Shown piece after piece: positions 26,537 through 51,206 of a DNA stretch of 64,000 nucleotides. The position numbers and the translations under genes are program-made. A model generated the notes under the pieces. That model saw only the letters and a program-made list of their open reading frames with translations, was not told the DNA's origin and searched no databases. Numbering within the stretch: position 1 is the stretch's first letter; every line of letters starts with the position of its first letter. The stretch spans positions 744,001 through 808,000 of the forward strand of contig NZ_CP129884.1 of the NCBI RefSeq assembly GCF_030490285.1. The letters run 5' to 3'. Source of the stretch: Methylomonas montana (GTDB taxonomy: Bacteria; Pseudomonadota; Gammaproteobacteria; Methylococcales; Methylomonadaceae).

Positions 26537-26933
26537 GGGGGTGACATGGCTTCGACGTGGGTAGCAAAACCTCAGGTGCATGCCGAGCACAGTACAGCTC
26601 GTAAAACCTACTGAAACTAAGTATTCGCAAACGACGAAAACTACTCAGTGGCCTTAGCAGCTTAAAACCTGCACCACTTCTCTGACTGTGTGTACTTATG
26701 CGTGCAGAGTTCCTAAGTATCCTTCGGGGTGTAAGGGAGCGTTCAGGGATCATATTACATAAGATCGCGCCAAGGCTTAGTTCGGAGCCCGAATCGCTAA
26801 ATCCAATCGAAATCGCTGTTGATCCTCTTGGCCCGACGGGTAGTCAACAGTTAAATCAAAAGCGCGGGATAAGCATGTAGAGCTTGTGGCGGAGTGCTTG
26901 CGGACGGGGGTTCAATTCCCCCCACCTCCACCA
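26537..26933 (+). ncRNA. ssrA: Transfer-messenger RNA (tmRNA)
   Basis: tmRNA rescues stalled ribosomes by adding a degradation tag. The 5' end GGGGGTG pairs with CACCTCC before the discriminator A and encoded CCA at 26931-26933, forming the tRNA-like acceptor stem with one G-U pair. The T-loop region GGGGGTTCAATTCCCCC is present. The tag frame runs 26627-26665 and encodes ANDENYSVALAA followed by TAA. The one-piece structure has the usual pseudoknot-rich middle of about 400 nt. Confidence 0.96.
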
Positions 26934-26968
26934 AATACTAGTACCAGAAAAACCCAAGACGTACCCAA

Positions 26969-27001
26969 CCCTGCGAAGTATCTAGCTTCGCGGGGTTTTT
27001 T
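26969..27001 (+). terminator. Terminator of ssrA
   Basis: A 10-bp stem (CCCTGCGAAG / CTTCGCGGGG, one T-G pair) with a 7-nt loop is followed by six T residues. It lies 35 nt after the tmRNA CCA end. Confidence 0.85.
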
Positions 27002-27096
27002 ATGTCCGATAAAGTCTACTAAAATCACAGCACCCATTCGTTTACCTGATTACATGGCTGAAAGGCGTGCAGATGCTGTTAAAGGAGCGATAAACC

Positions 27097-27405
27097 ATGC
27101 GGTTATCACAATCTCAAGCCCAAACAATACGTGAAAGCGTCCTAAACAATTTTGGTGAAGATGCCCATGTGTGGTTGTTCGGCTCAAGAGTACGAGATGA
27201 CGAGAAAGGTGGCGACATCGACCTCTATATTGAGGTCCAATCGCAATCGGCCGCGGACTTGATCAATAGTAAGTTGAAATTTCTACGTGATTTACACAAA
27301 AGGCTCGGGGATCAAAAAATCGACGTCGTGTTGCGTAAGGCCAATGGCTCGGTTGACTTACCTATTTATCAAATTGCTAAACAGACCGGGATTAAGTTGC
27401 AATGA
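27097..27405 (+). CDS. mntA: MntA-type antitoxin (minimal nucleotidyltransferase)
   Basis: MntA antitoxins neutralise HepT by adding AMP residues to it. The 102-residue protein has the nucleotidyltransferase signature: FGS at 28-30 followed by nine residues and D40-I-D42 (RVRDDEKGGDID), plus a later KIDVVLRK strand that could give the third acidic ligand. AAAGGAGCGATAAACC is a good ribosome site. The stop overlaps the next start by four bases. The GS-to-DxD spacing is nine residues as counted here. Confidence 0.85.
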   Translation: MRLSQSQAQTIRESVLNNFGEDAHVWLFGSRVRDDEKGGDIDLYIEVQSQSAADLINSKLKFLRDLHKRLGDQKIDVVLRKANGSVDLPIYQIAKQTGIKLQ

Positions 27406-27860
27406 TTACTGTCATACAAGAGATACTAAAAATCTGTGACCGTCATGCTGATAGACTGCGTTGGGCGGTGAGTCAACTGCAATGCCATGCGCCATTTGAC
27501 GAACAAGGTTTAAGTCGTTTGACCGATACTGAGATTGCCGTCTTGGATCAGTTTTCTGTGCGATTTGGGAAATTGCAGGATGCAATGGGCGCCAAGCTTT
27601 TTCCGGCTGTGTTAGAACTTACAAAAGAACCGGGTGAGTTGAAAGCTTTTATTGATAAGTTGAATCGCCTTGAAAAAATTGGTGCGATTCCATCGGCAGA
27701 TGATTGGTTGCTGCTGCGTGAAGTCAGAAACACCTTTGCACACGATTACCCGGATGATCCTGAACTCAAAGCAGAAGTCATCAACAAAGCTCTTAATCTA
27801 ACCGCATCTCTTCTTGATGTGTTGGATGCGGTAAAACGTTTCGTCCAACCTTATTTGTAG
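27402..27860 (+). CDS. hepT: HepT-type HEPN toxin
   Basis: HepT is a HEPN-fold toxin, usually an RNase. The 152-residue, all-helical protein has the exact R-x4-H-x-Y motif: R109-NTFA-H114-D-Y116 within EVRNTFAHDY. In characterised pairs this Tyr is the AMP acceptor for MntA. It is translationally coupled to the upstream antitoxin gene. The first gene pair after ssrA, it may stabilise the island. Confidence 0.85.
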   Translation: MITVIQEILKICDRHADRLRWAVSQLQCHAPFDEQGLSRLTDTEIAVLDQFSVRFGKLQDAMGAKLFPAVLELTKEPGELKAFIDKLNRLEKIGAIPSADDWLLLREVRNTFAHDYPDDPELKAEVINKALNLTASLLDVLDAVKRFVQPYL

Positions 27861-27915
27861 TGATTGGTAAACACCGATAAATCCCACTAGACTCCAGAAT
27901 CAATTTAAAAACCTC

Positions 27916-29760
27916 ATGCCCATGGTCAATGACGACGAACAACAGTTTTTAAACAACCTCGATAAAAAACTCTGGACCAGCGCCGACAAGTTACGCGCCA
28001 CCCTGGATGCCTCGCAATACAAACATACCGTACTCGGCTTGATCTTTTTAAAATACGTCAGCGACTCGTTTGATATTCGGCGTCAAGAGCTTACCGGCCA
28101 ATTTAAAAATCCGTATCACGAATACTACTTAGACCCTGCTGATTTTGGCGGTGCGGACAGCGCCGACTATCAAGCGGAAATCAACACCGAACTGGAACAA
28201 CGCGACTACTACGCCGAAACCAACGTATTTTGGGTGCCGAAAGTGGCGCGTTGGGAGTTTTTGCAAAACCAAAACAAGGTGGTCATTAACGGCGTGATTT
28301 GGCTCAATAAAGCCGGTGAGGTGCTTACCCAAGCACCGGAAGACGAAACCGAAAAACGCCTATGCACCCGTATTAGCTCCGTCGGGCAATTGATCGACCA
28401 TGCGCTGGAAGCCATCGAACAAGACAACGCCAAACTCAAAGGCATCCTCAACAAACGCTATACCAGCCTGCAAATCGACCCCGCCAAACTGGGCGAGCTG
28501 ATTGATTTAATCGCCACCATCCCGTTTAAACACGCCAGCCTCAGCAGCAAAGACATCCTCGGCCATGTTTACGAATACTTTCTCGGCCAATTTGCCTTAG
28601 CCGAAGGCAAAAAAGGCGGGCAGTTTTACACGCCCAAATCCATCGTCAGCCTGATTGTGCAAATGCTGGAACCCTTTAAAGGCCGCGTCTACGACCCAGC
28701 AATGGGCAGCGGCGGTTTTTTTGTGCAATCGGAAAACTTTATCCGCGAGCATCAAGGCCGCATTGGCGATGTGTCGATTTACGGCCAAGAATACAACCAC
28801 ACCACTTGGCAACTGGCCGCCATGAACATGGTGATTCGCGGCATTGACTTTAACTTTGGCAAAGAACCTGCCAACACCTACACCAACGACCAACACCCCG
28901 ATTTACGCGCCGACTTTGTGATGGCCAATCCGCCGTTCAACATGCGCGAGTGGGATACCGGCGTCAGTGACGACGATCCGCGCTGGGTGTACGGCAAACC
29001 GCCCAGCGGCAACGCCAACTTTGCCTGGCTGCAACACATGCTGTATCACCTCGCGCCCAACGGCAGTATGGGTTTGTTGCTCGCCAACGGCTCCATGAGC
29101 TCCAACACCAACAACGAAGGTGAAATCCGCAAAGCGCTGATCGACAACGACTTGGTGGAATGCATGGTCGCCTTGCCCGGCCAATTGTTCACCAATACCC
29201 AAATCCCCGCCTGCATCTGGTTTTTAACTAAAAACAAAGGCCAACGCACATCGGCTAGCGGCAGGACATTACGGGATCGCAAAGGCGAAATTTTGTTTAT
29301 CGACGCCCGCAATCTGGGCTACATGAAAGACCGTGTATTGCGCGACTTTAGCCAAGCCGATTTAAACAAAGTCACCGAGACCTTTCATTGTTGGCAAACC
29401 GTAGGTTGGGCTGACGACTGCATGGATGCAGGAGGTAGGGCAATGCGGGGAGCAATTGCCGAGCAACGCGATGCCCAACAAGCCCAAGTGGCCGAATCTG
29501 TTGGGGTTCCTAACGTCACCCCAACCTACGCCGACATTCCTGCCTTTTGTAAATCCGCCACCCTGGCCGAAATCCAAAAACACGATTACGTGCTGACCCC
29601 CGGTCGTTATGTCGGCGCGGCGGATGCCGTGGAAGATGGCGAAGTGTTTGCCGAGAAAATGGCACGATTGACGACACAGCTTAAAAGCCAGTTTGAACAA
29701 GGCGATAAGCTAGAAGCGGAAATTAAAAAGAACTTGGCGGGGTTGGGTTATGAGTTCTGA
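27916..29760 (+). CDS. hsdM: Type I restriction-modification system methyltransferase subunit
   Basis: HsdM makes N6-methyladenine in the target DNA together with HsdS. The 614-residue protein has the helical HsdM N-terminal domain (LWTSADKLRATLDASQYKH), the SAM-binding motif DPAMGSGG (about 260-267) and the catalytic NPPF (338-341). The C-terminus is helical. Two ATGs (27916 and 27922) are possible. The last 11 bases overlap hsdS. Confidence 0.95.
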   Translation: MPMVNDDEQQFLNNLDKKLWTSADKLRATLDASQYKHTVLGLIFLKYVSDSFDIRRQELTGQFKNPYHEYYLDPADFGGADSADYQAEINTELEQRDYYAETNVFWVPKVARWEFLQNQNKVVINGVIWLNKAGEVLTQAPEDETEKRLCTRISSVGQLIDHALEAIEQDNAKLKGILNKRYTSLQIDPAKLGELIDLIATIPFKHASLSSKDILGHVYEYFLGQFALAEGKKGGQFYTPKSIVSLIVQMLEPFKGRVYDPAMGSGGFFVQSENFIREHQGRIGDVSIYGQEYNHTTWQLAAMNMVIRGIDFNFGKEPANTYTNDQHPDLRADFVMANPPFNMREWDTGVSDDDPRWVYGKPPSGNANFAWLQHMLYHLAPNGSMGLLLANGSMSSNTNNEGEIRKALIDNDLVECMVALPGQLFTNTQIPACIWFLTKNKGQRTSASGRTLRDRKGEILFIDARNLGYMKDRVLRDFSQADLNKVTETFHCWQTVGWADDCMDAGGRAMRGAIAEQRDAQQAQVAESVGVPNVTPTYADIPAFCKSATLAEIQKHDYVLTPGRYVGAADAVEDGEVFAEKMARLTTQLKSQFEQGDKLEAEIKKNLAGLGYEF

Positions 29761-31117
29761 TGTGCGATTGCTAAAGCTCTCGGATATTTGCACAGATGTT
29801 TCTTATGGTTATACAGAAAGCGCAATCGACGAGGCGGTTGGCCCAAAGTTTTTGAGAATTACTGATATACAGGGCGGGGAAGTAAATTGGAAAAATGTGC
29901 CGTACTGTTCGATTGATGAAGAAAAAGTTGCCAAGTATTTATTGGAACATGGAGATATAGTTGTTGCTCGTACAGGGAATAGTACAGGCGAAAATTACGC
30001 ATATAAAGGGAATGAACAAACAGTATTTGCTTCGTACTTAATTAGATTTCGTATCGATAGACTAAAGGCGAACCCATTTTTTATTTGGTATCAAATGCGA
30101 TCGCGGCGTTGGTGGGATTTTGTTGAAAGCTCGAAAAGCGGCTCGGCTCAGGCAGGTGCAAATGCAAAAGTTCTTGGTGCATTTGAAGTTAACTTGCCTT
30201 CATTGTCATTACAAAATGAAATTGTTCGTTTCTTGGAGAGCATTGACAACAAAATCCAACTCAATCGCCAAACCAACCAAACCCTGGAACAAATCGCCCA
30301 AGCCCTATTTAAAAGCTGGTTTGTCGATTTTGAGCCTGTTAAAGCCAAAATGGTTGCCAAACAAGCAGGCGTAAATGCCGAGCAAATCGAACACGCCGCC
30401 CTATGCGCCATCAGCGGCAAAACCCCGGAACAACTCGCCCAACTCGACCCGCAAACCCTACAACAACTCAAAACCACCGCCGCCTTATTTCCCGATGCCT
30501 TGGTAGATTCTGAGTTGGGGGAAATACCGGAAGGGTGGGAAATTACAGTATTAGGTGAATTGTTAGAGTTCAATCCTAAGCGCACACTTAAATCTGGTAC
30601 GTTAGCGCCTTATCTTGATATGAAAAATGTTCCTACTCAAGGGCACTTGGCTGATGAAGTTTTGTTACGGGAAATGGCAAGCGGAACAAAATTTATCAAC
30701 GGAGATACATTGCTGGCTCGAATCACTCCTTGTCTGGAAAATGGTAAGACTGCATACGTGGATTTTTTAGAAAAAGAGCAGGTCGGTTGGGGGTCAACTG
30801 AGTATATTGTCATGCGACCAAAAAACGGTAGGCCGACTTCGCTAGGTTATATGATTGCTCGGTTGGATTCATTTAGAGCAAAAGCAATTCAAACTATGAC
30901 AGGTACTAGTGGTCGTCAACGTGCTAGTTCTCAGGCACTAGCGGAACAAGCATGGGTCGATTATCCCATCGAACTATTAAACATTTACGATCTTGTAGCA
31001 GGTCGTTATTTGGATAAAGCCAAAATTAATGGGGACGAAAATAAAGTATTGTCTGAGCTCAGAGACTCTCTACTCCCCAAACTCCTCTCCGGCGAAATCA
31101 AGCTGAGTAATTTTTAA
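29750..31117 (+). CDS. hsdS: Type I restriction-modification specificity subunit
   Basis: HsdS recognises the bipartite DNA target. The 455-residue protein has two target recognition domains (about 5-150 and 265-400), with the conserved helical spacer IDNKIQLNRQTNQTLEQIAQALFKSWFVDFEPVKAKM between them and a LLPKLLSGEI end helix. The recognition domains are visibly more AT-rich than the spacer and hsdM, fitting domain exchange between systems. Target bases cannot be read from the sequence. Confidence 0.93.
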   Translation: MSSDVRLLKLSDICTDVSYGYTESAIDEAVGPKFLRITDIQGGEVNWKNVPYCSIDEEKVAKYLLEHGDIVVARTGNSTGENYAYKGNEQTVFASYLIRFRIDRLKANPFFIWYQMRSRRWWDFVESSKSGSAQAGANAKVLGAFEVNLPSLSLQNEIVRFLESIDNKIQLNRQTNQTLEQIAQALFKSWFVDFEPVKAKMVAKQAGVNAEQIEHAALCAISGKTPEQLAQLDPQTLQQLKTTAALFPDALVDSELGEIPEGWEITVLGELLEFNPKRTLKSGTLAPYLDMKNVPTQGHLADEVLLREMASGTKFINGDTLLARITPCLENGKTAYVDFLEKEQVGWGSTEYIVMRPKNGRPTSLGYMIARLDSFRAKAIQTMTGTSGRQRASSQALAEQAWVDYPIELLNIYDLVAGRYLDKAKINGDENKVLSELRDSLLPKLLSGEIKLSNF

Positions 31118-31146
31118 TTATTCAAATTTAGTTTGTTTTCATTCCC

Positions 31147-31284
31147 CCCTCACCCAACCCTCTCCCGCGAGGAGAGGGAGCTTTTACAACAGCCTCCGCA
31201 GGGAGAGGGGGCTTTTACGACACTCTCCGAAAGAAGGGGAAGGGGATTTTTCCCTCTCCCTCTGGGAGAGGGTTAGGGTGAGGG
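31147..31284. repeat. MITE-like inverted-repeat element between hsdS and hipB
   Basis: The left end CCCTCACCCAACCCTCTCCC (31147-31166) is the near-perfect inverse of the right end 31264-31284 (GGGAGAGGG-TTAGGGTGAGGG). Between them are further GAGAGGG/CCCTCTCC tracts. The 138-bp element has no coding capacity and resembles non-autonomous palindromic elements common in intergenic DNA of proteobacteria. Confidence 0.75.
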
Positions 31285-31330
31285 AATTTATTGATGGATA
31301 CAGTGATGTCTATTTTCTGCTTGTATCGCC

Positions 31331-31353
31331 TATAATGGATACCATTGTATCCA
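31331..31353 (+). promoter_or_regulatory. Promoter -10 box overlapped by a HipB-type operator
   Basis: A perfect TATAAT (31331-31336) runs into the inverted repeat TGGATAC-CATT-GTATCCA (31336-31353); a further GGATAC lies at 31296-31301. GGATAC/GTATCC half-sites resemble the TATCC-type operator of E. coli hipBA. HipB binding here would block the promoter. No convincing -35 box is seen. Confidence 0.65.
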
Positions 31354-31368
31354 TGTGACTGATTAATC

Positions 31369-31662
31369 ATGCGTCGATTTTTATTGCTGGATGAGGCGGA
31401 AGTGCAACAGGCGTTTGCTGCCCATCTGCGTGGCCTGCGTGAACAGGCAAAATTGTCGAGAGAAGCGCTGGCGGAGCGTAGCAGTGTGCCTGCCGCGACC
31501 ATCAAAAAGTTTGAACGCACGGGGCAGATCGCTTTTCGGCAACTGCTGCTGCTTTGGCAAAGCCTGGATGATTTACAACGCTTGTATGCCTTGACTCAGC
31601 CCGCAAGCAAGGGCGCGGCGCTGCCCAGCTCGATTGATGAGGTGCTGAAAGATGAATTTTAA
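31369..31662 (+). CDS. hipB: HipB-like XRE-family antitoxin/regulator
   Basis: The 97-residue protein has a single XRE-type helix-turn-helix (AAHLRGLREQAKLSREALAERSSVPAATIKKFERTG split over about residues 17-50) that would bind the operator just upstream and neutralise HipA. Its last 11 bases overlap hipA. No clear Shine-Dalgarno sequence precedes the ATG, 26 nt after the predicted transcription start. Confidence 0.85.
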   Translation: MRRFLLLDEAEVQQAFAAHLRGLREQAKLSREALAERSSVPAATIKKFERTGQIAFRQLLLLWQSLDDLQRLYALTQPASKGAALPSSIDEVLKDEF

Positions 31663-32944
31663 GCCCATCCAAAAGCTAACCGTGAGTCGCACGTTGTCAA
31701 CCGGCGATTCGGTAGCGGTGGGGGTGCTGGCGCAAAATCGCCAGGGGGTGTTTTTTCAATACGATGCAATTTACCTTGAGCGCTACGGTAACGTGTCGCC
31801 GTTTACTTTAAAGCCGAGCACGGAACTACAGCGGGCGCCCGCTGCGCCGCACCAAGGTATTCACGGGGTGTTTGCCGATTGCCTGCCCGATGGTTGGGGG
31901 CTGCTGTTACAAGATCGGGTGTTTCGTCAGCACGGTATTTTGGCGGCGCAAGTGACCGCGATGGACCGGCTGGCGTTTGTGGGGCATAACGGCATGGGGG
32001 CGCTGAGTTTTGAGCCGGTAGCGGATTGGCTGCCAGACATGAGCGAGGCGATTGATTTGGCACGCTTGGGTCTTGAGGCGCAGGCACTGTTCGAGGGTGA
32101 AACGGAGCAAGTGCTGGCCGATTTGGTGGCGGTAGGCAGTTCGGGTGGAGCCAGGCCCAAGGCGCAATTGTTTATGTCGCCGGATCAGCCGCAGCACTGG
32201 CGGACGCGGGCACAGCCGGGCGATGAGGCGTGGTTGGTGAAGTTCACTTCGCAAAATCTGCCTTTGGGGCACGAAGAGGGTTTATGCGAAGCGGCGTATT
32301 TGCAGTTGGCGCAGCGGGCGAGCCTTGAGCCGCCCGAATGGCAGTTATTGCATGTGCCTACCCGCAATGGCCGCCGTTCCTGGTTGGCGGTAAAACGCTT
32401 TGATTGGCTGGGGCGTGCCGGGCATATGGCCGGGCGCTATCATTTGCACAGTGCCTGTGGCTTGTTGGATGCCGATTTTCGTACCCCCAGTCTGGATTAT
32501 GCCGATTTGATTAAGGCCAGCCGACAGCTGTGCAAATCGCCTGCCGTGGGGCAACGGCAATTTCGGCGGGCGTTGTTTAATTTGTTTGCCTGTAATCAGG
32601 ACGATCACAGTAAAAACTGGGCATTTTTGCAGGATGACAGCGGCGCTTGGCGCTTGGCGCCGTTTTATGATGTGACGTTTAGTCCGCATCCTTACGCCGA
32701 ACATGCCACGTCATTTGCGGGTTACGGAAAAAACCCACCTCTTAAAGCCATGCAGGCGCTGGCTCGCCATGCCGGATTTGCCAACTGGAAACTGGCGCAG
32801 CAAGCCATTGCGGAAGTCGTCGATGTCGTTGCCGGCTTTGCTGACGTTGCCAGAGAGCTGGAGGTTAACACGGAAACGATAACGCTGATTACGCAGCAAT
32901 TAAACGCGGTTTGGCAAGCCAATAAGGCTTTGCTTGCCTCTTGA
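31652..32944 (+). CDS. hipA: HipA-like serine/threonine kinase toxin
   Basis: HipA toxins phosphorylate translation factors, in E. coli glutamyl-tRNA synthetase, and induce dormancy. The 430-residue protein keeps the kinase core: Gly-rich loop GSSGGARPKA (about 161-170), catalytic loop CNQDDHSKNW (about 314-323) and the metal-binding FYDVTFSP. The N-terminal HipA_N part (DSVAVGVLAQNRQGVFFQYD) is present. The gene is intact and lies between hsdS and hsdR in the same orientation; its stop is 25 nt before the hsdR start. Confidence 0.9.
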   Translation: MNFKPIQKLTVSRTLSTGDSVAVGVLAQNRQGVFFQYDAIYLERYGNVSPFTLKPSTELQRAPAAPHQGIHGVFADCLPDGWGLLLQDRVFRQHGILAAQVTAMDRLAFVGHNGMGALSFEPVADWLPDMSEAIDLARLGLEAQALFEGETEQVLADLVAVGSSGGARPKAQLFMSPDQPQHWRTRAQPGDEAWLVKFTSQNLPLGHEEGLCEAAYLQLAQRASLEPPEWQLLHVPTRNGRRSWLAVKRFDWLGRAGHMAGRYHLHSACGLLDADFRTPSLDYADLIKASRQLCKSPAVGQRQFRRALFNLFACNQDDHSKNWAFLQDDSGAWRLAPFYDVTFSPHPYAEHATSFAGYGKNPPLKAMQALARHAGFANWKLAQQAIAEVVDVVAGFADVARELEVNTETITLITQQLNAVWQANKALLAS

Positions 32945-32969
32945 AACTGACACGCTCTAAGGACAGCAC

Positions 32970-35900
32970 ATGATCTCGGAAGACCAACTGGAACAACTCT
33001 GCCTCGACTGGTTTAGGAACATTGGCTATGACTACATCAATGGTTATGACATTGCGCCTGATGGCGAATATCCTGAGCGTGTCGATTATCGCCAAGTAGT
33101 GCTATTTGACCGTTTACTCAGCCAGCTGCAAAAAATCAACCCGCATATTCCGCTCGACGTACTAGAGCGTGTATCACAGCAAATCGCCAAGCCGGAATCT
33201 CCGGTTTTAATCAAAAGCAACCATGTGTTTCATCGCTTGTTATTAGAAGGCGTGAAGGTTGATTTTAAAATCGACGGCGAAGAGAAAACCGATTATGTGG
33301 CCTTGCTGGATTTTGCTATGGTCAGCAATAACCAGTTCTTGGTGGTGAATCAATACACGATTGCTGGCAGCAAAGGCCATCGTCGCCCGGATGTGTTGGT
33401 GTTTGTGAATGGCTTGCCGTTGGCTGTGTTGGAGCTGAAAAATCCGGTTGATCAAAATGCCGATATTTGGGCGGCTTATCAGCAGTTGCAAACTTATAAG
33501 GATGAAATCAGCGATTTATTCATCTTTAACGCGGCATTGGTAGTCAGTGATGGTTTGCATGCGCGGGTGGGTTCGCTCACCGCTAATAAAGAACGCTTTT
33601 TGCCGTGGCGCACGGTGGCCAATGAAGACGATAAGCCGCTGTTTGAATACCGTCTGGAAACCTTGGTGAAGGGCTTTTTTCAGCCGGCATTGTTTTTAGA
33701 TTATCTGCATTACTTTATTTTGTTTGAGCAGGACGACGGCCAGCTGATTAAAAAGATTGCCGGGTACCATCAGTTTCATGCAGTGCGGGAAGCGGTGAAA
33801 GCCACGGTGATCGCTGCGCAACAGATAGACGACCGTTCTGCCGAACCCCGCGCCGATTACGCGCAGCGGGTGGTGCCGGGATCGGGTAAGGCGGGGGTGG
33901 TGTGGCATACCCAGGGTTCGGGCAAGTCGATTTCGATGGTGTGTTACGCCAGCAAGTTATTGGCGCAGCCGGAAATGAATAATCCCACCATCGTGGTGGT
34001 GACCGATAGAAACGATCTGGACGGTCAGCTGTTTAATACCTTTAGCATGGCGGTGGAAACCCTGAAACAAACCCCGGTGCAGGCCGGTGATCGCGACGAT
34101 TTGCGCGAGATGCTGGCGGCGCGGCAAGCGGGCGGGATTATTTTTACCACCATCCAAAAATTTGCGTTGCTGGCCGATGAAACCAGTCATCCGGTATTAA
34201 GCAATCGCCATAATATCGTGGTGATTAGCGATGAAGCGCACCGCAGCCAGTATGGCGATAAAGCCAAGTTAAATGCCAAAACCGGGCAATATAGCTTTGG
34301 TTATTCCAAGCATTTGCGCGATGCCTTGCCCAGCGCCAGTTTTATTGGCTTTACCGGCACGCCGATTGCCGCGCAGGATAAAGATACGCGGGCGGTGTTT
34401 GGCGATTATGTCTCTATCTACGATATTCAGGATGCGGTGGATGACGGCGCGACGGTGCCGATTTATTATGAATCGCGCTTGGCTAAGCTGGATATAAACA
34501 CGGCAGACATCGAAGCCTTGAATGCGGAAGTGGACGAGGTCATTGAAGACGAAGAAGACATCGCCAGCCGCGAAAGCACCAAATCACAATGGGCGGCCTT
34601 GGAAAAGCTGGTGGGCAGTGCGCCGCGTGTGGCGCAAGTCGCTAACGATTTGGTCAGCCATTTTGAAACCCGCATTGCCAGCATGCCGGGCAAAGCCATG
34701 ATCGTGTGCATGAGCCGCGATATTTGTGTGGAGCTGTACAACGCCATTGTGGCGCTTAAGCCTGAATGGCACGATGCCGACCCCAACAAAGGCGCGATTA
34801 AAATTGTGATGACCGGCTCGGCCTCTGACCATGCCAAGCTTCAGCCGCATATTTATAGCAAGACCACTAAAAAGCTGTTTGAAAAACGCTTTAAAGACAT
34901 TAACGATCCGCTGCAATTGGTGATTGTGCGCGATATGTGGCTGACGGGTTTTGATGCGCCTTGTTGCCATACCATGTATATCGACAAGCCAATGAAAGGC
35001 CATAACCTGATGCAGGCCATTGCGCGAGTGAATCGGGTATTTAAAGATAAGCCCGGCGGCTTGGTGGTGGATTATATCGGCATTGCCAGCGAGCTGAAGC
35101 AGGCGCTGAAAACCTATACCGATTCCAAAGGCAAAGGCGCGCCCACGCTGGATACGCACGAGGCGTATGCGGTGCTGTTGGAAAAAATGGATATTGTGCA
35201 TGGCATGATGCAGGGCTTTGATTACAGCGCGTTTGAAACCAAGGCTTTGCAGTTATTGCCGGGCGCAATGAATCATATTTTAAGTTTGCAAGGCCGCAGT
35301 GGTGAGTTGGACGGCAAAAAGCGCTTTTTAGACGTGATGACGGCGCTGAACAGTGCTTACACCTTATGTTCTACCTTGGATGAAGCCGAACCGCTGAAAA
35401 AAGAAATTGCGTTTTTAGGGGCAGTGAAAAGTGCGATTAGCAAATTTACCTCGGTGGATAAGCGCCGCACCGATGAGGAGAAAAACTCTGCCCTGAAACA
35501 GATTATTGATAACGCCATTGTTGCCAATGGCGTAGACGATATTTTTAGTTTGGTGGGCTTGGATAAACCCAATATTGGCTTGCTCTCGCCTGAGTTTATG
35601 GATGATGTGGCGCGGCTGAAAGAGAAAAATCTGGCGGTGGATTTATTAGAGCGTTTGCTGCGCGATGAAGTGAAAGCGCGCATGAAAACCGATGTGGTGT
35701 CGGAGAAAAAATATTCTGAGCGTATTCTGGAATCTTTGCGCAAATACCACAACCGCGCCATCGAAACCGCTCAGGTGATTGAAGAGCTAATTGCCATTGC
35801 CAAAGACATGCAGGCGGATTTGGCGCAAGCGGAAAAACTGGGTTTAAATCCGGACGAAATCGCCTTTTATCGAGCGTTAATTCAGAATGAGTCTGCGGTG

Positions 35901-36131
35901 CGTGAATTGGGGGATAACAATCTGCGTGAGCTTGCTAAAGAGATTACCGAGCAATTGCGTAAAAGCACCACTGTTGATTGGGCAAAGCGGGATAGTGTGC
36001 GGGCGAGGTTGGGTAATCTAGTCAGGCGCGCACTGCGTAAATGGAAGTATCCACCCGATAAAGCTGATGAAGCTGTAGAACTGTGTTTAAAACAAGCTGA
36101 GGTGCTGAGTGAGGCTTGGAGTGCGGGCTAA
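32970..36131 (+). CDS. hsdR: Type I restriction endonuclease/translocase subunit
   Basis: HsdR cuts unmethylated DNA after ATP-driven translocation. The 1053-residue protein has an N-terminal PD-(D/E)xK nuclease ([19 protein letters not shown]), Walker A HTQGSGKS (about 312-319), the DEAH box in [11 protein letters not shown] (about 419-429), FTGTPI, and the second RecA motifs ([17 protein letters not shown]). The long C-terminal helical region docks on HsdM. The gene appears intact, so the system is probably active. Confidence 0.95.
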
Positions 36132-36378: not shown

Positions 36379-36894
36379 ATGAAATTCCAGATAGTTGCGG
36401 CTACTTTTTTTATCACATCCACTCTGACTTCAGGTGCGTCTTGGGCAGAAAGCATATGTTATGACGTAGTAGAAAGTTCTACTTCCACAACCAATATCAC
36501 GTCTACTTTACAGACGGGACAAATCAAACTCAAATTAGTGAGGGCCGGTACATCCGATGTCGTTTTTAATAAAACCGGTACGCTTGTCGGCGTCATCACC
36601 GGTACCTTACCGGATGGTCGGCCAATTTTGACTCATACTGCTAAATTCAGCGAGGGCTTCAGCTATACCACCCAAGGCGATGTTGCAACGCCAATGGGTG
36701 ATCCTACTCAGTGTTCTTTCGCCGCAATCGAATTCATAAGCCATATTGCAAGAGGAACAAAGCTATTTGACAATCTTCAGCCTTACTTTGATGAAACTGT
36801 TTATAACGGAGTCGTTGCTACCGGAGAAATTAGCAACTGTCCCGACCTTAATCGGAACACTTTCAGTTTAGCGGGAAGGCTTTGTAAGCCTTAA
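36379..36894 (+). CDS. Secreted hypothetical protein
   Basis: The 171-residue protein has a Sec signal peptide (cleavage likely after SGASWA) and a mature part with four cysteines (the CYDVVES start, QCSF, NCPD and LCKP), predicted mostly beta. CTAAAGGTATTGAA precedes the ATG. No known domain is recognised. It lies alone between hsdR and the large helicase gene, so its relation to either is unclear. Confidence 0.75.
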   Translation: MKFQIVAATFFITSTLTSGASWAESICYDVVESSTSTTNITSTLQTGQIKLKLVRAGTSDVVFNKTGTLVGVITGTLPDGRPILTHTAKFSEGFSYTTQGDVATPMGDPTQCSFAAIEFISHIARGTKLFDNLQPYFDETVYNGVVATGEISNCPDLNRNTFSLAGRLCKP

Positions 36895-37204: not shown

Positions 37205-40200
37205 ATGGCTCATCAAACCGACAGAACCCGAGCCAAATGCCTTTGCATTGATATCGAAACCGCCCGTCAGGATAGCTTGAAGTTGCGGGAAATAGGCGCC
37301 TATCGCCCGGACACCGATGTGCGCCTGCGCGTATCCGGCAAGGCGCCTGACTTGGTTAAAAAGCTGGATCAAATCAGCGAAGGCGCGGCGTTTGTGTTGG
37401 GGCATAACGTGATTGCCTTCGACCAGCCGGCTCTATCGGCACTGCATCCCGATTTGGCGCTGCATCGCTTGCCTTTGGTCGATACGCTGGAACTGTCGCC
37501 GGTGGCCTTTCCGCAAAATCCTTATCACCGCTTGGTGAAAGACTACAAACTCTGCACCACCACCCGCAACGATCCGGTCCGCGACGCGGAACTGGCTTAC
37601 GAATTGTTTCTGGATCAGGCCGATGCGTTGCGGCAGCGGGTGGCGGAACATCCTGACGAAGCGCTGTGCCTGCATTTTTTATTGGCGCCGGAGAACGGTA
37701 AGGGTGTGGCGAATTTCTTTGCCACCTTGCGCGCCGCGTTGCGGCCTTCCTTGAGCGATGCACAAGCGGCCTGGCAGCGAGCCACCGGCGGCAAGGTGTG
37801 CCGCGCCGGACAGCAGCTGGTCGTCAACGACTTTTTGCCCGAGCCGGCTTGGCATAAGTCTCTGGCTTATGTGTTGGCTTGGCTGCGGGTGGCGGGCGGC
37901 AATTCGGTGCTGCCGCCCTGGGTGAGTTTGTCCTTCCCGAAAACCCGCGAGTTGATCGCGACCTTGCGCGATGTGCCTTGCGGCGATGCCGAGTGTGAGT
38001 GGTGCCGGGAGCAGCATGATCTGTCGCAATTGTTGCCGCGCTATTTTCCGGGCATCACGCAGTTCCGGCCGACGCCAACTAGCGAGGATGGTGGGTCCTT
38101 GCAACAAGCCATCGTCGAACATGGCTTTGCCGGCACGCCGACGCTGGCGATTCTGCCGACCGGCGGCGGCAAATCCTTGTGTTATCAATTGCCGGCCTTG
38201 GCGCGCTTTTACCGCAACGGCAGCCTGACGGTGATCATCTCGCCGCTGCAATCCTTGATGAAGGATCAGGTCGACAATCTGGAAGCGCGCGGCATTACCT
38301 GCGCCGGTTACATCAATAGTTTGCTGAATCCTATGGAACGACAACTGATGCTGGATAAGTTGCGGCTGGGCGATTTGGGTTTGATCTTTGTCGCGCCGGA
38401 ACAATTTAGAAGCAGCGCCTTCGGCAAGGCCTTGATGCACAGGGAAGTCGGCGCCTGGGTGTTCGACGAGGCGCACTGTTTATCCAAATGGGGACACGAT
38501 TTTCGCCCGGATTATTTGTACGTGTCGCGTTTTATAAAAACCCGGCAAAAGGACAAGCCGTCGCCGGTATTTTGTTTTACCGCCACCGCCAAACCGGACG
38601 TGGTGCAAGACATTGTCGAGCATTTTCGCAAGCGCTTGGGTATTAGGCTGGCGTGTTTGACTGGCGGCGTCAGCCGGGAAAACCTGCTATACGAAGTGCA
38701 TGCGGTGCCTGCCCAAGCCAAATACCCGGAAGTGCTACGCTTGCTGGAGCAAAGCTTGCGCGACGAGGGCGGTGCCATCGTGTTCTGCGCGCGACAGAAG
38801 ACAGTGGAGGAAATGGCGGAATTTTTGAAACAGGCCGGCCTGGATTGCGGTTATTTCCACGGCGGCATGCAGCCCGAGCAAAAACGGCAGGTGCAGGAAG
38901 CCTTTATCGCCGGCGAGCTGCGGGTGATCGCCGCCACCAATGCCTTCGGCATGGGCGTGGATAAGGCCGATGTGCGTTTGGTGATTCATTTGGACACGCC
39001 AGGCTCATTGGAAAATTATCTACAGGAAGCCGGGCGGGCCGGTCGCGATCAAGACCCGGCGCGTTGCGTGTTGCTGTATGACGATACCGATCTGGATGTG
39101 CAGTTTCGTTTACTGCGTAATTCCAGGCTGACGCAACACGATATTTCCGCGATTTTAAAAGCCTTGCGCAGCATCGAGCGCAAAGACCGCAGCGAAGGTT
39201 CGGTGGTGGTCACCAGCGGCGAAATCTTGCTGGAAATACCGGACAAACACGGTATCGATCCCGATGCCGCCGATGCCGACACCAAGGTCCGCATCGCGGT
39301 GGCCTGGCTGGAAGAAGCCCGTCTGCTGGAGCGCCAGGAAAATCATACCCGCGTCTTTCCGGGCAGTTTGCAGGTGGCTAGTATCGATGAGGCCAGAGTC
39401 TTGCTGCAGAAAAAGCTGGAGCCGAATGCCGACATCGAGCCTTATATCGTGCTGCTGTCGCAGTTGTTTTATAGCGAAGACGACGAAGGCATCAGCACCG
39501 ACGACCTGATGCTTGCTACCGGCCGCAATTCTCATGAAGTGCAGAGCATGTTGCGCGAGCTGGACCGCTTTAAACTGGTGTCCAACGATACCGAAATCGG
39601 CGTCACGCTGTACCGCGATCCCGACACGGTCGATAGGCTGGAGGACTTGCGCAAGCTGGAAGACGCGTTGATCGCCAGCTTGCGCGAGGAAGCGCCGGAC
39701 GCGGATCGGGAGCAATGGCAGATTCTGAATGTGCGGCGGCTGTGCGATACCTTGCGCCGCGAGGCCGGCGTGGAGTTGACGCCGGACAAATTGACGCGTT
39801 TGATGAAATCGTTTGCCGAAGCCTTTGGCGATAATACCAGCCTGCGCGGTTTTTTTGCGTTACGCCCGGCCGGCCAGGACAATCGCTATCTGAAATTGCT
39901 GCGCAGCTGGCAGAAGATAGATGACATCCGCTGCAAGCGCATGCGGCTGGCTCAGGCCTTGCTGAATTACTTTCTGGTGCAACGCCAGGGCAATAATCTG
40001 CTGGTCACCTGCAAGCAAGGCGATTTGGAAGCAGCTTTGCGAGTCGATCTGACGTTACAGGATCTGGATGTACGCGATTGGAATGTGGCTTTGGCGGCGG
40101 CGTTGATTTATCTGGACAGCAACGAAGTATTGCATCTGGCCCGTGGCAAGGCCGTGTTCCGGGCGGCGATGAGCATTCAGCTGAATGCCGAAGCCCGGCG

Positions 40201-42349
40201 CCGGCAGTTTAAAAAATCAGATTACGCCGAGCTGGCCTTGCATTACAAGGACAAGATCATCCAGGTGCATGTGATGGCGGAATACGCGCGGCTGGCGCTA
40301 GGCAAGATTCAGGCGGCGATGGCGTTTATCGTCGATTACTTTGCCATGGATAGACACGAATTTGTACGCCGCTATTTTGCCGGCCGCCAGGATATTCTGG
40401 AAATGGCCACCACTGAGGCCGCGCATCGACGCATTCTCAGCGATCTGCAAAATCCGGAACAACAAGCCATCGTCGCCGCGCCGCCGGAAGGCAGTCAACT
40501 GGTGCTGGCCGGCCCCGGTTCCGGCAAGACCAGGGTCATCGTGCATCGGGTGGCCTGGTTACTGCGCGAATGCATGGTGTTGCCGGAAGACATCATGGTT
40601 TTGAGCTATAACCGTTCGGCGGCCGTCGAAATTCGTAAACGCTTGTGGGCCTTGATCGGCGCGGATGCCGTTGGTGTAACCGTGCAAACCCTGCACAGCC
40701 TGGCGATGCGCTTGACCGGCACCAGTTATGCTGTCGCCGCCGAGCATGGCGAGACAGTCGATTTTTCCGCCGTTATCAAAAACGCCACCACGCTCTTGAA
40801 ACAAGCGGAGCAGGGCGACGACATCGGTCCGGGCATACAACGCGACCGCTTGCTGTCGGGCTTGCGCTATCTGCTGGTCGACGAATATCAGGACATCAAC
40901 GCCGAGCATTACGAGTTGATTAGCGCGTTGGCCGGCAGGGCTATCAATAGCGAGGACGATAAATTGTCGCTGTTGGCGGTGGGCGACGACGATCAGAATA
41001 TTTACGCGTTTGGCGGCGCGAACGTTCGCTTCATCAAACAGTTTACCGAGGACTATCAGGCCAGGACTTTTTACCTGATCGAAAACTACCGCTCCACGGC
41101 GCATATCATTCATTGCGCGAATCGGGTGATTGCGCCGGCGCGGGAGCGGATGAAAACCCAGCAGACCATCCAAATCAATTACGCCCGCCGAGATGCGGCG
41201 GATGGCGGCGAATTTGCCAAACTGGATAGTTTGACTCAAGGCCGGGTGCATATCCTGGAAACCCCGGCGCCGCTCTATGGTGAAGTCGAGCTGGCGCTGG
41301 CCGAATTGATTCGGTTGAACAGGCTGGCAAACGCAGGTCAAACCAGCCATTGGGGCCGTTTTGCGGTGATCGCCAGACATTGGGAAACGTTGGAACCAAT
41401 GGCGGAATTGTGCCGGTTGCAAGGCATTCCGGTGCGCTTGATGCGCGACAAGTATCTATTGAATTTGTATAGCACGCGGGAAGGCTATGGCTTGCTGGCA
41501 TTATTGAACAAGCAAGGGCGAAAGTCTCGCAAACCCCGGCTGTTGTTGCGCTGGGGGACGTTGTCGCGCTGGTTCAAACGCCGCTATCGTCAGAAGGTGG
41601 ACGACCCGATCGAACATCCCTATCGAGCCATGCTGGCGCAATTCATCAGTGCCTCCGAATCGATCGCGCCAGGATGCCAGCAGGTGGTCAGCAATCTGGT
41701 CGAAGCGCTTTACGAATTCGATTCCGGTAGTCAGATCGGCGAAAACGATAGCCGGCATGCGCCGTTGTTGTTATTGACGGCGCATCGTGCCAAGGGCTTG
41801 GAATTCGATCATGTGCTGATTCTGGATGGCGGCGGCTGGCAGCAAACCCGCGACGAAGAGCGGCGGTTATTCTACGTGGCGATGACCCGGGCCCGCAAGA
41901 CCCTGACTTTGTCTACCAGATCAGGTGGGCGGCATGCTTTCGTTCGCGATTGCGAAGCGCTTTGCGTTAAAACGCAGCCGCAAGCCACTCGCGAGTTTCA
42001 AGCGCTGGGCCAACGCACTTGGCTGGCCGATTTGGGGCAAGTCGTATTGTCATGGCCGGGATATTTCGCGCCGGATAAGGCTATTCACCGGGCGATTGCG
42101 CAGCTGGAGGTCGGCTGCGAATTGATCTTGCGTACCAGGAGCGACGGGCAAACCGGTTGGGAACTGGCGGACAAAAACGGTGTGGCGGTTACCCGAATGG
42201 CTTTGGCTTTTACGCCGCCGCCGGGCAATATCGTGGCGGTAAGGGTGGCGGCGATTGCGGTTTGGCACAGAAAGTCCGGCGATGACGAAAAACTGCGTTG
42301 CGAGCATTGGGAGGTGGTGTTGCCGGAAATTTCGTATATGCCGCGCTGA
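37205..42349 (+). CDS. Exonuclease-RecQ-UvrD three-module fusion protein
   Basis: The 1714-residue protein joins three DNA-processing modules. Residues about 10-140 resemble a DEDD 3'-5' exonuclease: D16-I-E18, GHN...FD (N68, D73) and the third motif NDPVRDA ending at D127. Residues about 285-640 are a RecQ helicase: Walker A TGGGKS (319-324), DEAH (421-424), FTATA and QEAGRAGRD; the four-Cys RecQ zinc domain was not seen. Residues about 1085-1600 form a UvrD/Rep-type SF1 helicase: GPGSGKT (1103-1109), DEYQD (1226-1230), DDDQNIYAFGG, TAHRAKGLEFD and FYVAMTRAR. The linker (640-1080) is helical. Such a protein could unwind, degrade and strip DNA in repair or phage defence; that is inference. 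Confidence 0.9.
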   Translation: MAHQTDRTRAKCLCIDIETARQDSLKLREIGAYRPDTDVRLRVSGKAPDLVKKLDQISEGAAFVLGHNVIAFDQPALSALHPDLALHRLPLVDTLELSPVAFPQNPYHRLVKDYKLCTTTRNDPVRDAELAYELFLDQADALRQRVAEHPDEALCLHFLLAPENGKGVANFFATLRAALRPSLSDAQAAWQRATGGKVCRAGQQLVVNDFLPEPAWHKSLAYVLAWLRVAGGNSVLPPWVSLSFPKTRELIATLRDVPCGDAECEWCREQHDLSQLLPRYFPGITQFRPTPTSEDGGSLQQAIVEHGFAGTPTLAILPTGGGKSLCYQLPALARFYRNGSLTVIISPLQSLMKDQVDNLEARGITCAGYINSLLNPMERQLMLDKLRLGDLGLIFVAPEQFRSSAFGKALMHREVGAWVFDEAHCLSKWGHDFRPDYLYVSRFIKTRQKDKPSPVFCFTATAKPDVVQDIVEHFRKRLGIRLACLTGGVSRENLLYEVHAVPAQAKYPEVLRLLEQSLRDEGGAIVFCARQKTVEEMAEFLKQAGLDCGYFHGGMQPEQKRQVQEAFIAGELRVIAATNAFGMGVDKADVRLVIHLDTPGSLENYLQEAGRAGRDQDPARCVLLYDDTDLDVQFRLLRNSRLTQHDISAILKALRSIERKDRSEGSVVVTSGEILLEIPDKHGIDPDAADADTKVRIAVAWLEEARLLERQENHTRVFPGSLQVASIDEARVLLQKKLEPNADIEPYIVLLSQLFYSEDDEGISTDDLMLATGRNSHEVQSMLRELDRFKLVSNDTEIGVTLYRDPDTVDRLEDLRKLEDALIASLREEAPDADREQWQILNVRRLCDTLRREAGVELTPDKLTRLMKSFAEAFGDNTSLRGFFALRPAGQDNRYLKLLRSWQKIDDIRCKRMRLAQALLNYFLVQRQGNNLLVTCKQGDLEAALRVDLTLQDLDVRDWNVALAAALIYLDSNEVLHLARGKAVFRAAMSIQLNAEARRRQFKKSDYAELALHYKDKIIQVHVMAEYARLALGKIQAAMAFIVDYFAMDRHEFVRRYFAGRQDILEMATTEAAHRRILSDLQNPEQQAIVAAPPEGSQLVLAGPGSGKTRVIVHRVAWLLRECMVLPEDIMVLSYNRSAAVEIRKRLWALIGADAVGVTVQTLHSLAMRLTGTSYAVAAEHGETVDFSAVIKNATTLLKQAEQGDDIGPGIQRDRLLSGLRYLLVDEYQDINAEHYELISALAGRAINSEDDKLSLLAVGDDDQNIYAFGGANVRFIKQFTEDYQARTFYLIENYRSTAHIIHCANRVIAPARERMKTQQTIQINYARRDAADGGEFAKLDSLTQGRVHILETPAPLYGEVELALAELIRLNRLANAGQTSHWGRFAVIARHWETLEPMAELCRLQGIPVRLMRDKYLLNLYSTREGYGLLALLNKQGRKSRKPRLLLRWGTLSRWFKRRYRQKVDDPIEHPYRAMLAQFISASESIAPGCQQVVSNLVEALYEFDSGSQIGENDSRHAPLLLLTAHRAKGLEFDHVLILDGGGWQQTRDEERRLFYVAMTRARKTLTLSTRSGGRHAFVRDCEALCVKTQPQATREFQALGQRTWLADLGQVVLSWPGYFAPDKAIHRAIAQLEVGCELILRTRSDGQTGWELADKNGVAVTRMALAFTPPPGNIVAVRVAAIAVWHRKSGDDEKLRCEHWEVVLPEISYMPR

Positions 42350-49724: not shown

Positions 49725-51206
49725 ATGAGAAACTTCAAACCCTCGTTTGTATTGGCGGTTGCTTTACATATCCTGATCGTGTTGTTGTTCAGTATTAGCT
49801 TCTTGACCGACAGCGATACGGCGCAAACCTCGCCACCGGCCGACATTATCGAAGCAACCGTGATGGATGGCGCGGAAATAGACGCCGAAGCCGAGCGCTT
49901 GAAACAAAACGAAGCCAATAAGCACCAAGCCGACGTCGAGCATCAGCAACAGCTGGAAAATGCCCGAAAGGCCGAAGAACAGGCCTTGCAGCAAGCTAAA
50001 AAGCAGCGCGTGCTCGAAGAGCAAAAAATCCAGGAAGCCGCCGAGCGACGCAAGCAAGAGGCTTTGGAAGAGCAGAAGAAACAAGAGCAACTGGAAACCA
50101 AGCGCAAGGAAGAGGAAAAAAAGTTAGAGGAAGCCAAGGAACGGCGAGCTCTGGAAGAGAAAAAAGCCAAGGAAGTCGCCGAAAAGCAGAAACAGGCCGA
50201 GTTGGAGAAGCAAAAGGAGACAGCGGAAAAACAGAAGCAAGCGGAGCTGGAAAAGCAAAAGGAAGTCGAGAAACAAAAACAGCTGGAAAAACAAAAACAG
50301 CAGGAAGTGGAGCGCGAAGCCAAGCTCAAGGAACAAAAGCTAGCGGAACAAACTCGGGCCAAACAGCAGCAGGAAGCCGAAGTCAAAAAGCTGGAGCAAG
50401 AAAAGAAGTTGCAGGAACAAAAAACTCTGGAGCAGCAAAAAAAATTACAGGAACAAAAAGCCGAGGAAGCCAAGCGGCAAGAACAACTAAAACAAGCCGA
50501 AGCCAAGGCTAAAGCGGAAAAGGATCAGCAGTTGGCCGAGGAAAAAGCCAAGGCCGATAAGGAAAAACAAGCCGCGCTTAACGCCGAAAAGGCGGAAAAA
50601 GCCAAGCAAGCCGCCGAAGCCGAGGCCAGGGCCAAAGCCGAGAAGGAAAAACAATTAGCCGCCGAGAAAGCGGAAAAAGATCGGCAAGCCAAGATAGCTG
50701 CCGAAGCGGAGGCTAAAGCCAAGGCCGAAAAGGAGCGCCAAGCCAAGTTGGCGGCGGAAAAAGCCGAGAAGGCCGAGAAAGAACGACTGGCGGCCGAAGC
50801 GGCGGCAAAAGCTAAAGCCGAGCAAGAACGCCAAGCCGCGATAGCGGCTGCAGAGAAAGCCGAAAAAGATAGGCAAGCTGCAGAAGCCGCTGCGGCGGCT
50901 GCGGCAAAAGCTGCATCGGATAAGCAGGCTGTCGATTCAGCCAAACAGATGATCGCCCGAAAAGTGGAGGGTGCCTGGACGCGGCCAATCAACGCGACAC
51001 AAGGCTTGAAATGCACAATTCAGGTAAAATTGTTAGCTAGCGGCGATGTGATGGATGCTGTAGTAATCAGCAGCAGCGGCGATCCGATTTTTGACCGGTC
51101 GGCCGAAAACGCGGTGAGAAAAGCCTCGCCGTTGCCAGTGCCTCAAGATAGGAATTTGTTTAATCAGGAATTTAGAGTTTTCACCTTCGTGTTTAAACCG
51201 GAATAA
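49725..51206 (+). CDS. tolA: Tol-Pal system protein TolA
   Basis: TolA links the inner-membrane motor to the outer envelope. The 493-residue protein has one N-terminal membrane helix (about 8-25), a very long Lys/Glu/Ala/Gln-rich helical domain (about 55-395) with many KAEKE- and EKQKQ-type repeats, and a globular TolA C-domain (ARKVEGAWTRPINATQGLKC...). It is longer than the E. coli protein, mainly in the helical rod. Confidence 0.94.
   Translation: MRNFKPSFVLAVALHILIVLLFSISFLTDSDTAQTSPPADIIEATVMDGAEIDAEAERLKQNEANKHQADVEHQQQLENARKAEEQALQQAKKQRVLEEQKIQEAAERRKQEALEEQKKQEQLETKRKEEEKKLEEAKERRALEEKKAKEVAEKQKQAELEKQKETAEKQKQAELEKQKEVEKQKQLEKQKQQEVEREAKLKEQKLAEQTRAKQQQEAEVKKLEQEKKLQEQKTLEQQKKLQEQKAEEAKRQEQLKQAEAKAKAEKDQQLAEEKAKADKEKQAALNAEKAEKAKQAAEAEARAKAEKEKQLAAEKAEKDRQAKIAAEAEAKAKAEKERQAKLAAEKAEKAEKERLAAEAAAKAKAEQERQAAIAAAEKAEKDRQAAEAAAAAAAKAASDKQAVDSAKQMIARKVEGAWTRPINATQGLKCTIQVKLLASGDVMDAVVISSSGDPIFDRSAENAVRKASPLPVPQDRNLFNQEFRVFTFVFKPE

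Follow-up and report, generated by a model that had tools for sequence, protein, structure and literature searches.

A fused bacterial protein with an exonuclease-like domain and RecQ and UvrD motors is patchily distributed and sometimes adjoins anti-virus genes

The fused gene and its locus in Methylomonas montana

The stretch of DNA analyzed here (the window) comprises 64,000 nt of Methylomonas montana (assembly GCF_030490285.1, contig NZ_CP129884.1, positions 744,001-808,000 of the forward strand). On its plus strand lies an intact open reading frame (37205..42349), supported by homolog alignment, for a fused exonuclease-RecQ-winged-helix-UvrD protein of 1714 amino acids. It is preceded, in this order, by a tmRNA gene (26537-26933), an MNT/HEPN-like pair, whose second member has no Pfam match, HsdM, HsdS, a HipB-like ORF, HipA, HsdR, and a small ORF. 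On its 3′ side, an ORF on the opposite strand that by eye is thioredoxin-like is followed by serA, yebC, and ruvB. An earlier note on this DNA had placed the gene next to a type I restriction island, and this adjacency was confirmed in the window.

The island behind the tmRNA gene (26537-36131) contains the MNT/HEPN-like pair, the type I restriction-modification (R-M) genes, and HipA. G+C content per kb is 0.44-0.56 in this tmRNA-side island and 0.55-0.57 over the fused gene. The small ORF between HsdR and the fused gene (36379-36894) has, by eye, a signal-peptide-like start; it gave no Pfam or NCBIfam match at E≤0.001. Further downstream, an A over T skew of 0.72 on the plus strand (50001-51000) corresponds to the A-rich-codon part of tolA, which by eye is rich in Lys, Glu, Gln, and Ala.

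Ten close relatives (L203-L212, 90-92% identity) were compared for their surroundings. Nine of them carry a downstream gene that we take, from its sequence, to be gatB-like (L203-L211); it was not seen in L212. An HsdR of 94-95% identity lies nearby in five of the ten and one of 30% in two, with L212 including hardly any upstream DNA, and the R-M proteins of the window find no match between dnaJ and the fused gene in L207. Since gatB is located 3 Mb from the fused gene in the genome of the window, the fused gene either travels with the tmRNA-side island or was moved.

Domain architecture and conservation

Only the two motors gave Pfam matches above cut-off: RecQ-type DEAD/Helicase_C domains at residues 299-615 and the N and C parts of UvrD at about 1083-1573. 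The remaining domains were assigned from structural models, fold matches, and conservation. An alignment over the whole length was possible for 13 diverse copies, with the exception of L040, which ends near residue 1560. Conservation was scored on 94 rows, the protein of the window and 93 loci; L044 and L099 passed the score rule and were left out because no RecQ Walker A pattern could be located in them, while L219, the initial part of a copy split in two, was kept unchanged. Pfam, modeling, fold matches, and the homolog alignment agree with the claim of the earlier note that an exonuclease-like domain, RecQ, and UvrD share one chain, and the motor motifs described there as intact are conserved across the 94 sequences. 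Two features described below, an array of winged helices and a site of four cysteines, go beyond that sequence-only reading.

The RecQ SF2 motor (residues 296-627; 38090..39085, plus strand) was identified by Pfam, NCBIfam, and alignment. It shows a Walker A lysine (K323), a DEAH box (421-424), and an aromatic-rich loop with W429, F433, and R434, which together with D436 are present in all 94 sequences. Its score exceeds the cut-off of the RecQ subfamily model TIGR00614 (294.8 bits, cut-off 219.8) and lies far under that of the housekeeping RecQ equivalog TIGR01389 (336.5 bits, cut-off 640.2). A RecQ zinc domain had not been seen before, and its absence is borne out: none of the 94 sequences has at least four cysteines in the stretch aligned to residues 618-735. 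According to the model, winged-helix units come after the RecQ core; RQC and HRDC gave no Pfam match in the protein of the window, and neither is among the best 25 of 48 Pfam families matched by the middle region of 55 sequences.

The second motor, of the UvrD/Rep SF1A type (residues 1076-1590; 40430..41974, plus strand; Pfam and alignment), carries Walker A and B and motifs III-VI, including K1108, DEYQD at 1226-1230, and R1562 of motif VI. K1108 is found in 88 of 94 sequences, with four gaps and a single R and a single P in the others, and D1226, E1227, Q1229, Q1264, and R1296 are present in 87, the other seven having gaps. Among the best 25 of 54 NCBIfam families, no UvrD, Rep, or PcrA equivalog cut-off was reached (UvrD, 164.4 against 1144.45). 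When the protein was compared with PADLOC, the best 25 of 92 models were helicase models covering a single motor each, and none was a full-length match to a PADLOC system protein. Listed relatives that have a name are called RecQ helicase or "DNA 3′-5′ helicase," a label that hides the remaining domains.

The N-terminal domain (residues 12-148; 37238..37648, plus strand) is predicted to adopt the RNase H-like fold of DEDDh exonucleases, based on model, fold match, and conservation. Its modeled fold matches DnaQ/DinG/RNase T-type nucleases, with DinG of Staphylococcus aureus (PDB 9ii8) as the closest hit, and all four carboxylates of motifs I-III are in place as putative metal ligands (D16, E18, D73, and D127). 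D16, D73, and D127 are invariant in the 94 sequences and E18 is replaced only once (Gly in L067). The DEDD-type domain proposed earlier is thus supported by fold and ligands, and so is the unusual Asn122 at the position of the catalytic His of HxAxxD, where the alignment contains 88 Asn, six Ser, and no His.

This substitution allows the domain to be read as an inactive nuclease that acts as a 3′-end or metal-dependent DNA clamp, with the protein only unwinding or remodeling DNA. Such a clamp, a possibility against which we lean only mildly, would be compatible with a role in defence, in repair, or on mobile elements. Dead nucleases usually lose their metal ligands, however, and 93 of the 94 sequences retain all four carboxylates; moreover, H108 (92/94) or K112 (94/94) could replace the missing His. 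What speaks for the clamp, besides the absence of His from the alignment, is the reported effect of an alanine at the matching position of S. aureus DinG, where H149A nearly abolishes exonuclease activity (PMC12345164). By analogy, the fused protein may have little nuclease activity; trimming by the N-terminal domain may be slow, may rely on H108/K112, or may give way to clamping.

A helical linker (residues 149-295; 37649..38089, plus strand) connects the nuclease-like domain to RecQ. Its set of cysteines C199, C259, C264, and C267 is complete in 89 of 94 sequences. The C259/C264/C267 set is missing from five copies (two from cyanobacterial plasmids, one from a Deinococcus plasmid, and two from Campylobacterota), four of which also lack C199. 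This joint conservation suggests that the four cysteines could form one metal site, a candidate for binding Zn or Fe-S. Between the motors, the model predicts some four winged-helix-like units in a row (residues 628-1075; 39086..40429, plus strand), in line with Pfam HTH matches and winged-helix fold matches. RPC62/RPC3, a subunit with several winged helices, was among the top Foldseek rows for this middle model at low confidence, and no kinship is claimed. The C-terminal domain (residues 1591-1714; 41975..42346, plus strand) gave nothing below E 2 in a profile search against the PDB and evolves fast: in comparisons with eight relatives its dN/dS was the highest of all domains in seven pairs and saturated in the eighth. 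In the same comparisons, the whole gene had a dN/dS of 0.061-0.174, the exonuclease-like domain one of 0.037-0.113, and RecQ one of 0.030-0.087. Every domain is under selection.

Distribution and genomic neighbors

A search with the N-terminal domain returned 1,989 proteins at E≤0.001, and nearly all of the best 120 are about 1,700 amino acids long. Among 80 loci retained in a genome scan, 61 (L043-L103) are family members, some of them clipped at contig ends; in the other 19 (L104-L122) the match is confined to the RecQ core. The gene was found in 14 of 396 Pseudomonadota genomes (including that of the window) and, in full length, in 13 of 296 Bacteroidota genomes (including the known carrier G081), where five further matches were plain RecQ. 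A blastn search for a copy in Escherichia coli with one 3.9-kb piece of a Pseudomonas copy gave no match, which says little because divergence is high. Within the genus Methylomonas, 23 of 37 genomes are carriers, again including that of the window, and four of these have a version with only 43-45% identity. Three of 25 matching genus genomes contain an internal stop or a split copy (G036, G030, and G012; L012, L021, and L026/L033), which fits either a dispensable gene or assembly errors.

A tree was calculated from 64 rows with copies longer than 1,500 amino acids; as a quick tree, it has long branches and 12 open forks. Its rows come from Pseudomonadota, Bacteroidota, Bacillota, Thermodesulfobacteriota, Verrucomicrobiota, Actinomycetota, Cyanobacteriota, and Campylobacterota, plus plasmids including one from Deinococcus. 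The version of the window groups with copies from Thauera, Comamonas, and an Allochromatium plasmid, and the two of the 43-45% versions that were included in the tree group with other Methylococcaceae. The genus contains two far-apart clades of the fused gene, which as a whole is patchily spread across several bacterial phyla.

Plasmids carry the gene in 24 of 72,556 records at a cover of at least 80%. Copies lie on plasmids of Allochromatium, Thiothrix, Cereibacter, Microvirga, Nostoc, Phocaeicola, Pseudanabaena, Aliarcobacter, and Deinococcus. One plasmid copy lies beside type I R-M genes and another near a type I-D CRISPR locus. The Aliarcobacter copy adjoins parA, parB, and replication genes, and by eye parB-like genes adjoin the fused gene in L258. 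Such locations would be expected of a maintenance factor that serves replication or resolution of plasmids and islands, or excludes competitors, and is carried on islands for that reason. This explanation appears improbable to us: the gene is also found on large contigs (the 4.63-Mb contig of the window and contigs of 1 to 5 Mb in G190, G469, G533, G612, and G525), none of 50,697 phage records reached 80% cover, and no neighbor is constant. The same phage search led us to reject a phage origin of the gene. Near full-length copies, spanning roughly 1,500 or more query residues, were present in 10 of 80 IMG/VR loci listed (among L123-L134).

Clustering the neighbors of 70 loci revealed no constant partner, as the most frequent neighbor family, which by eye resembles short-chain dehydrogenases, occurs at only six loci. 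Type I R-M was rejected as a general partner as well: outside Methylomonas it was found at 2 of 70 loci, in a search that was queried with the Hsd, HipA, and MNT/HEPN proteins encoded in the window and that distant systems can escape. N6 methylases are not clearly enriched: among 72 genomes, two have one within 10 kb of the fused gene, with an expectation of 0.73 (P about 0.16, places compared by hand).

At E≤1e-10, 127 PADLOC models matched the 122 adjacent proteins from 69 loci and 291 models matched 139 proteins around 25 loci drawn evenly from Pseudomonadota and Bacteroidota, compared with 24 models for a control of 104 proteins flanking 19 plain-recQ loci; these tallies count models rather than proteins, so that one true R-M gene matches many, and the control loci are fewer and come from other genomes. 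Among the 25 models listed of the 127 and of the 291, the strongest were DrmD (8e-295), PDC-S41 (2.1e-285), PDC-S68 (1.2e-283), MTase_I (7.8e-267), and LmuA (3.2e-253), with DrmD, MTase_I, and LmuA in the list for the 25 evenly drawn loci, whereas the best match in the complete control list reached 5.6e-48. Some listed matches are to general classes such as sigma-54 regulators and AAA proteins and carry little weight. A simple longest-ORF rule defined the neighbor ORFs, some of which are not genes. A 90-1500 aa filter removed one of 123 adjacent ORFs (1963 aa), leaving those 122 from 69 of the 70 loci, and the set of 139 omits three of 142 proteins (L268:13130-16618, L269:4043-7408, and L273:15988-18738). 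Ordinary-looking neighbors, as judged by eye, surround the fused gene at many of the 25 loci drawn evenly. The survey of homolog neighborhoods proposed in the earlier note thus yielded more defence models than the plain-recQ control.

Restriction-like genes of varying content recur near the fused gene. L063 (979-4731) contains a methyltransferase and a protein in which Pfam recognizes PLD, ResIII, and DUF3427 domains and whose start resembles HIT by eye only. In L088 (14693-17775), a methyltransferase gene and one for a homolog of this DUF3427 helicase follow the fused gene after 28 bases, and both are fused into one upstream protein of 1286 amino acids in L091 (1149-5006). Two loci of the evenly drawn set add to this: L264 harbors a pair of DUF3427 proteins together with a GmrSD enzyme, a HIT-like gene, and an HNH-type gene, and in L274 (5632-7604), the only locus where Pfam supports the HIT assignment, an HNH gene and a gene that fuses methyltransferase and HIT lie directly upstream. 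DUF3427 helicase genes were located at 11 places, spread over 8 of 72 genomes, and lie within 10 kb of the fused gene in three (G075, G098, and G723), with 0.054 places expected; since G075 and G098 prompted this test, only G723 is independent. Genes for methyltransferases, PLD-like nuclease/helicase/DUF3427 proteins, HIT, and HNH proteins were observed beside the fused gene in several phyla, and this recurrent set may itself be a defence system.

Proposed role and comparison with known systems

Based on its distribution, we favor a role of the fused protein against foreign DNA, with repair as a still serious rival. We tentatively propose, at a little short of an even chance, that it is an accessory-gene DNA-processing machine directed against phage and plasmid DNA. 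Known relatives of both motors move with 3′-5′ polarity. The winged helices would grip duplex DNA while the two motors each pull one strand of an end, fork, or gap in the 3′-5′ direction, and the freed 3′ end would be handed to the nuclease-like domain for slow trimming or an altered chemistry. Unprotected or aberrant phage and plasmid DNA could be removed in this way, by the protein alone or alongside restriction-type neighbors. For this role we count the conserved motors and ligands, the patchy spread, the plasmid copies, the two clades, the excess of PADLOC models, the proximity of DUF3427 genes, and the position at an island; against it, the lack of a constant neighbor, the many ordinary-looking neighbors, the model-based nature of the tallies, and the missing catalytic His. 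The defence idea of the earlier note is therefore upheld in part: the accessory distribution and the higher number of PADLOC models than near plain recQ agree with it, while the many copies among ordinary-looking genes and the rarity of type I R-M outside Methylomonas do not.

The ordinary-looking surroundings would suit an accessory repair or recombination enzyme that acts on host forks when these break or stall, much like RecQ and UvrD on their own and like exonuclease-fused DinG, and that provides stress tolerance in some lineages. Both motors belong to repair helicase families, and S. aureus DinG, the closest fold match, has been reported to function in the repair of MMC damage (PMC12345164). 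Housekeeping repair nevertheless seems the less favored role, since the genome of the window already encodes separate RecQ-like and UvrD/Rep-like genes elsewhere; the patchy spread, plasmid carriage, two distant versions in one genus, and frequent defence models near homologs also argue against repair, and we consider this explanation less likely than defence. A more far-reaching version of the defence proposal is doubtful in our view: a widespread single-protein immune machine combining motors of two superfamilies, a nuclease with an Asn site, duplex reading by winged helices, and a four-Cys metal site, which in a subset of genomes partners with the methyltransferase and the PLD-nuclease-helicase-DUF3427 protein as a new restriction-like pathway.

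What becomes of broken and foreign DNA is decided by helicase-nuclease machines. A chain that unites SF2 and SF1 motors with a nuclease-like domain is a candidate one-gene defence system, and the replacement of His in all 94 copies offers a natural test of how DEDD nucleases function, or are reused, without it.

Among systems covered by PADLOC, GajB of Gabija, DpdF, and PsyrT contain UvrD-like or RecQ-like helicases that each match one core of the fused protein, and none of the best 25 models spans both motors. WRN, which to our knowledge lacks a UvrD motor, shares the order of exonuclease and RecQ in a single chain. This part of the earlier comparison stands, but kinship appears unlikely: the modeled N-terminal domain matches DnaQ/DinG/RNase T-type folds, whereas the WRN exonuclease was placed with PF01612 (Majorek et al. 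2014; PMC3985635). The resemblance therefore looks like parallel assembly. The best 25 of 29 Pfam families matched by 61 N-terminal members do not include PF01612. Majorek et al. also describe a cluster F.14 of PF13482 members together with "RecQ ATP-dependent DNA helicases" and T7 polymerases; UvrD is not mentioned in the main text (PMC3985635). In this cluster, the N-terminal domain of the fused protein had probably already been noticed. A literature search, which covered few subscription papers, found no description of the whole architecture.

RecBCD and AddAB follow a similar multi-motor or motor-nuclease logic but use separate subunits, SF1 motors only, and a different nuclease fold. MrfAB of Bacillus subtilis differs in consisting of two proteins, with a true DEDDh nuclease and no known UvrD motor. 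It has been described as a helicase and DEDDh exonuclease that repairs DNA damage (PMC11194089). S. aureus DinG is likewise a helicase-exonuclease, reported to combine His149 with a 5′-3′ helicase (PMC12345164); the fused protein has Asn or Ser in place of His, a RecQ motor, and an additional UvrD motor. The whole architecture is a variant on known helicase-nuclease themes.
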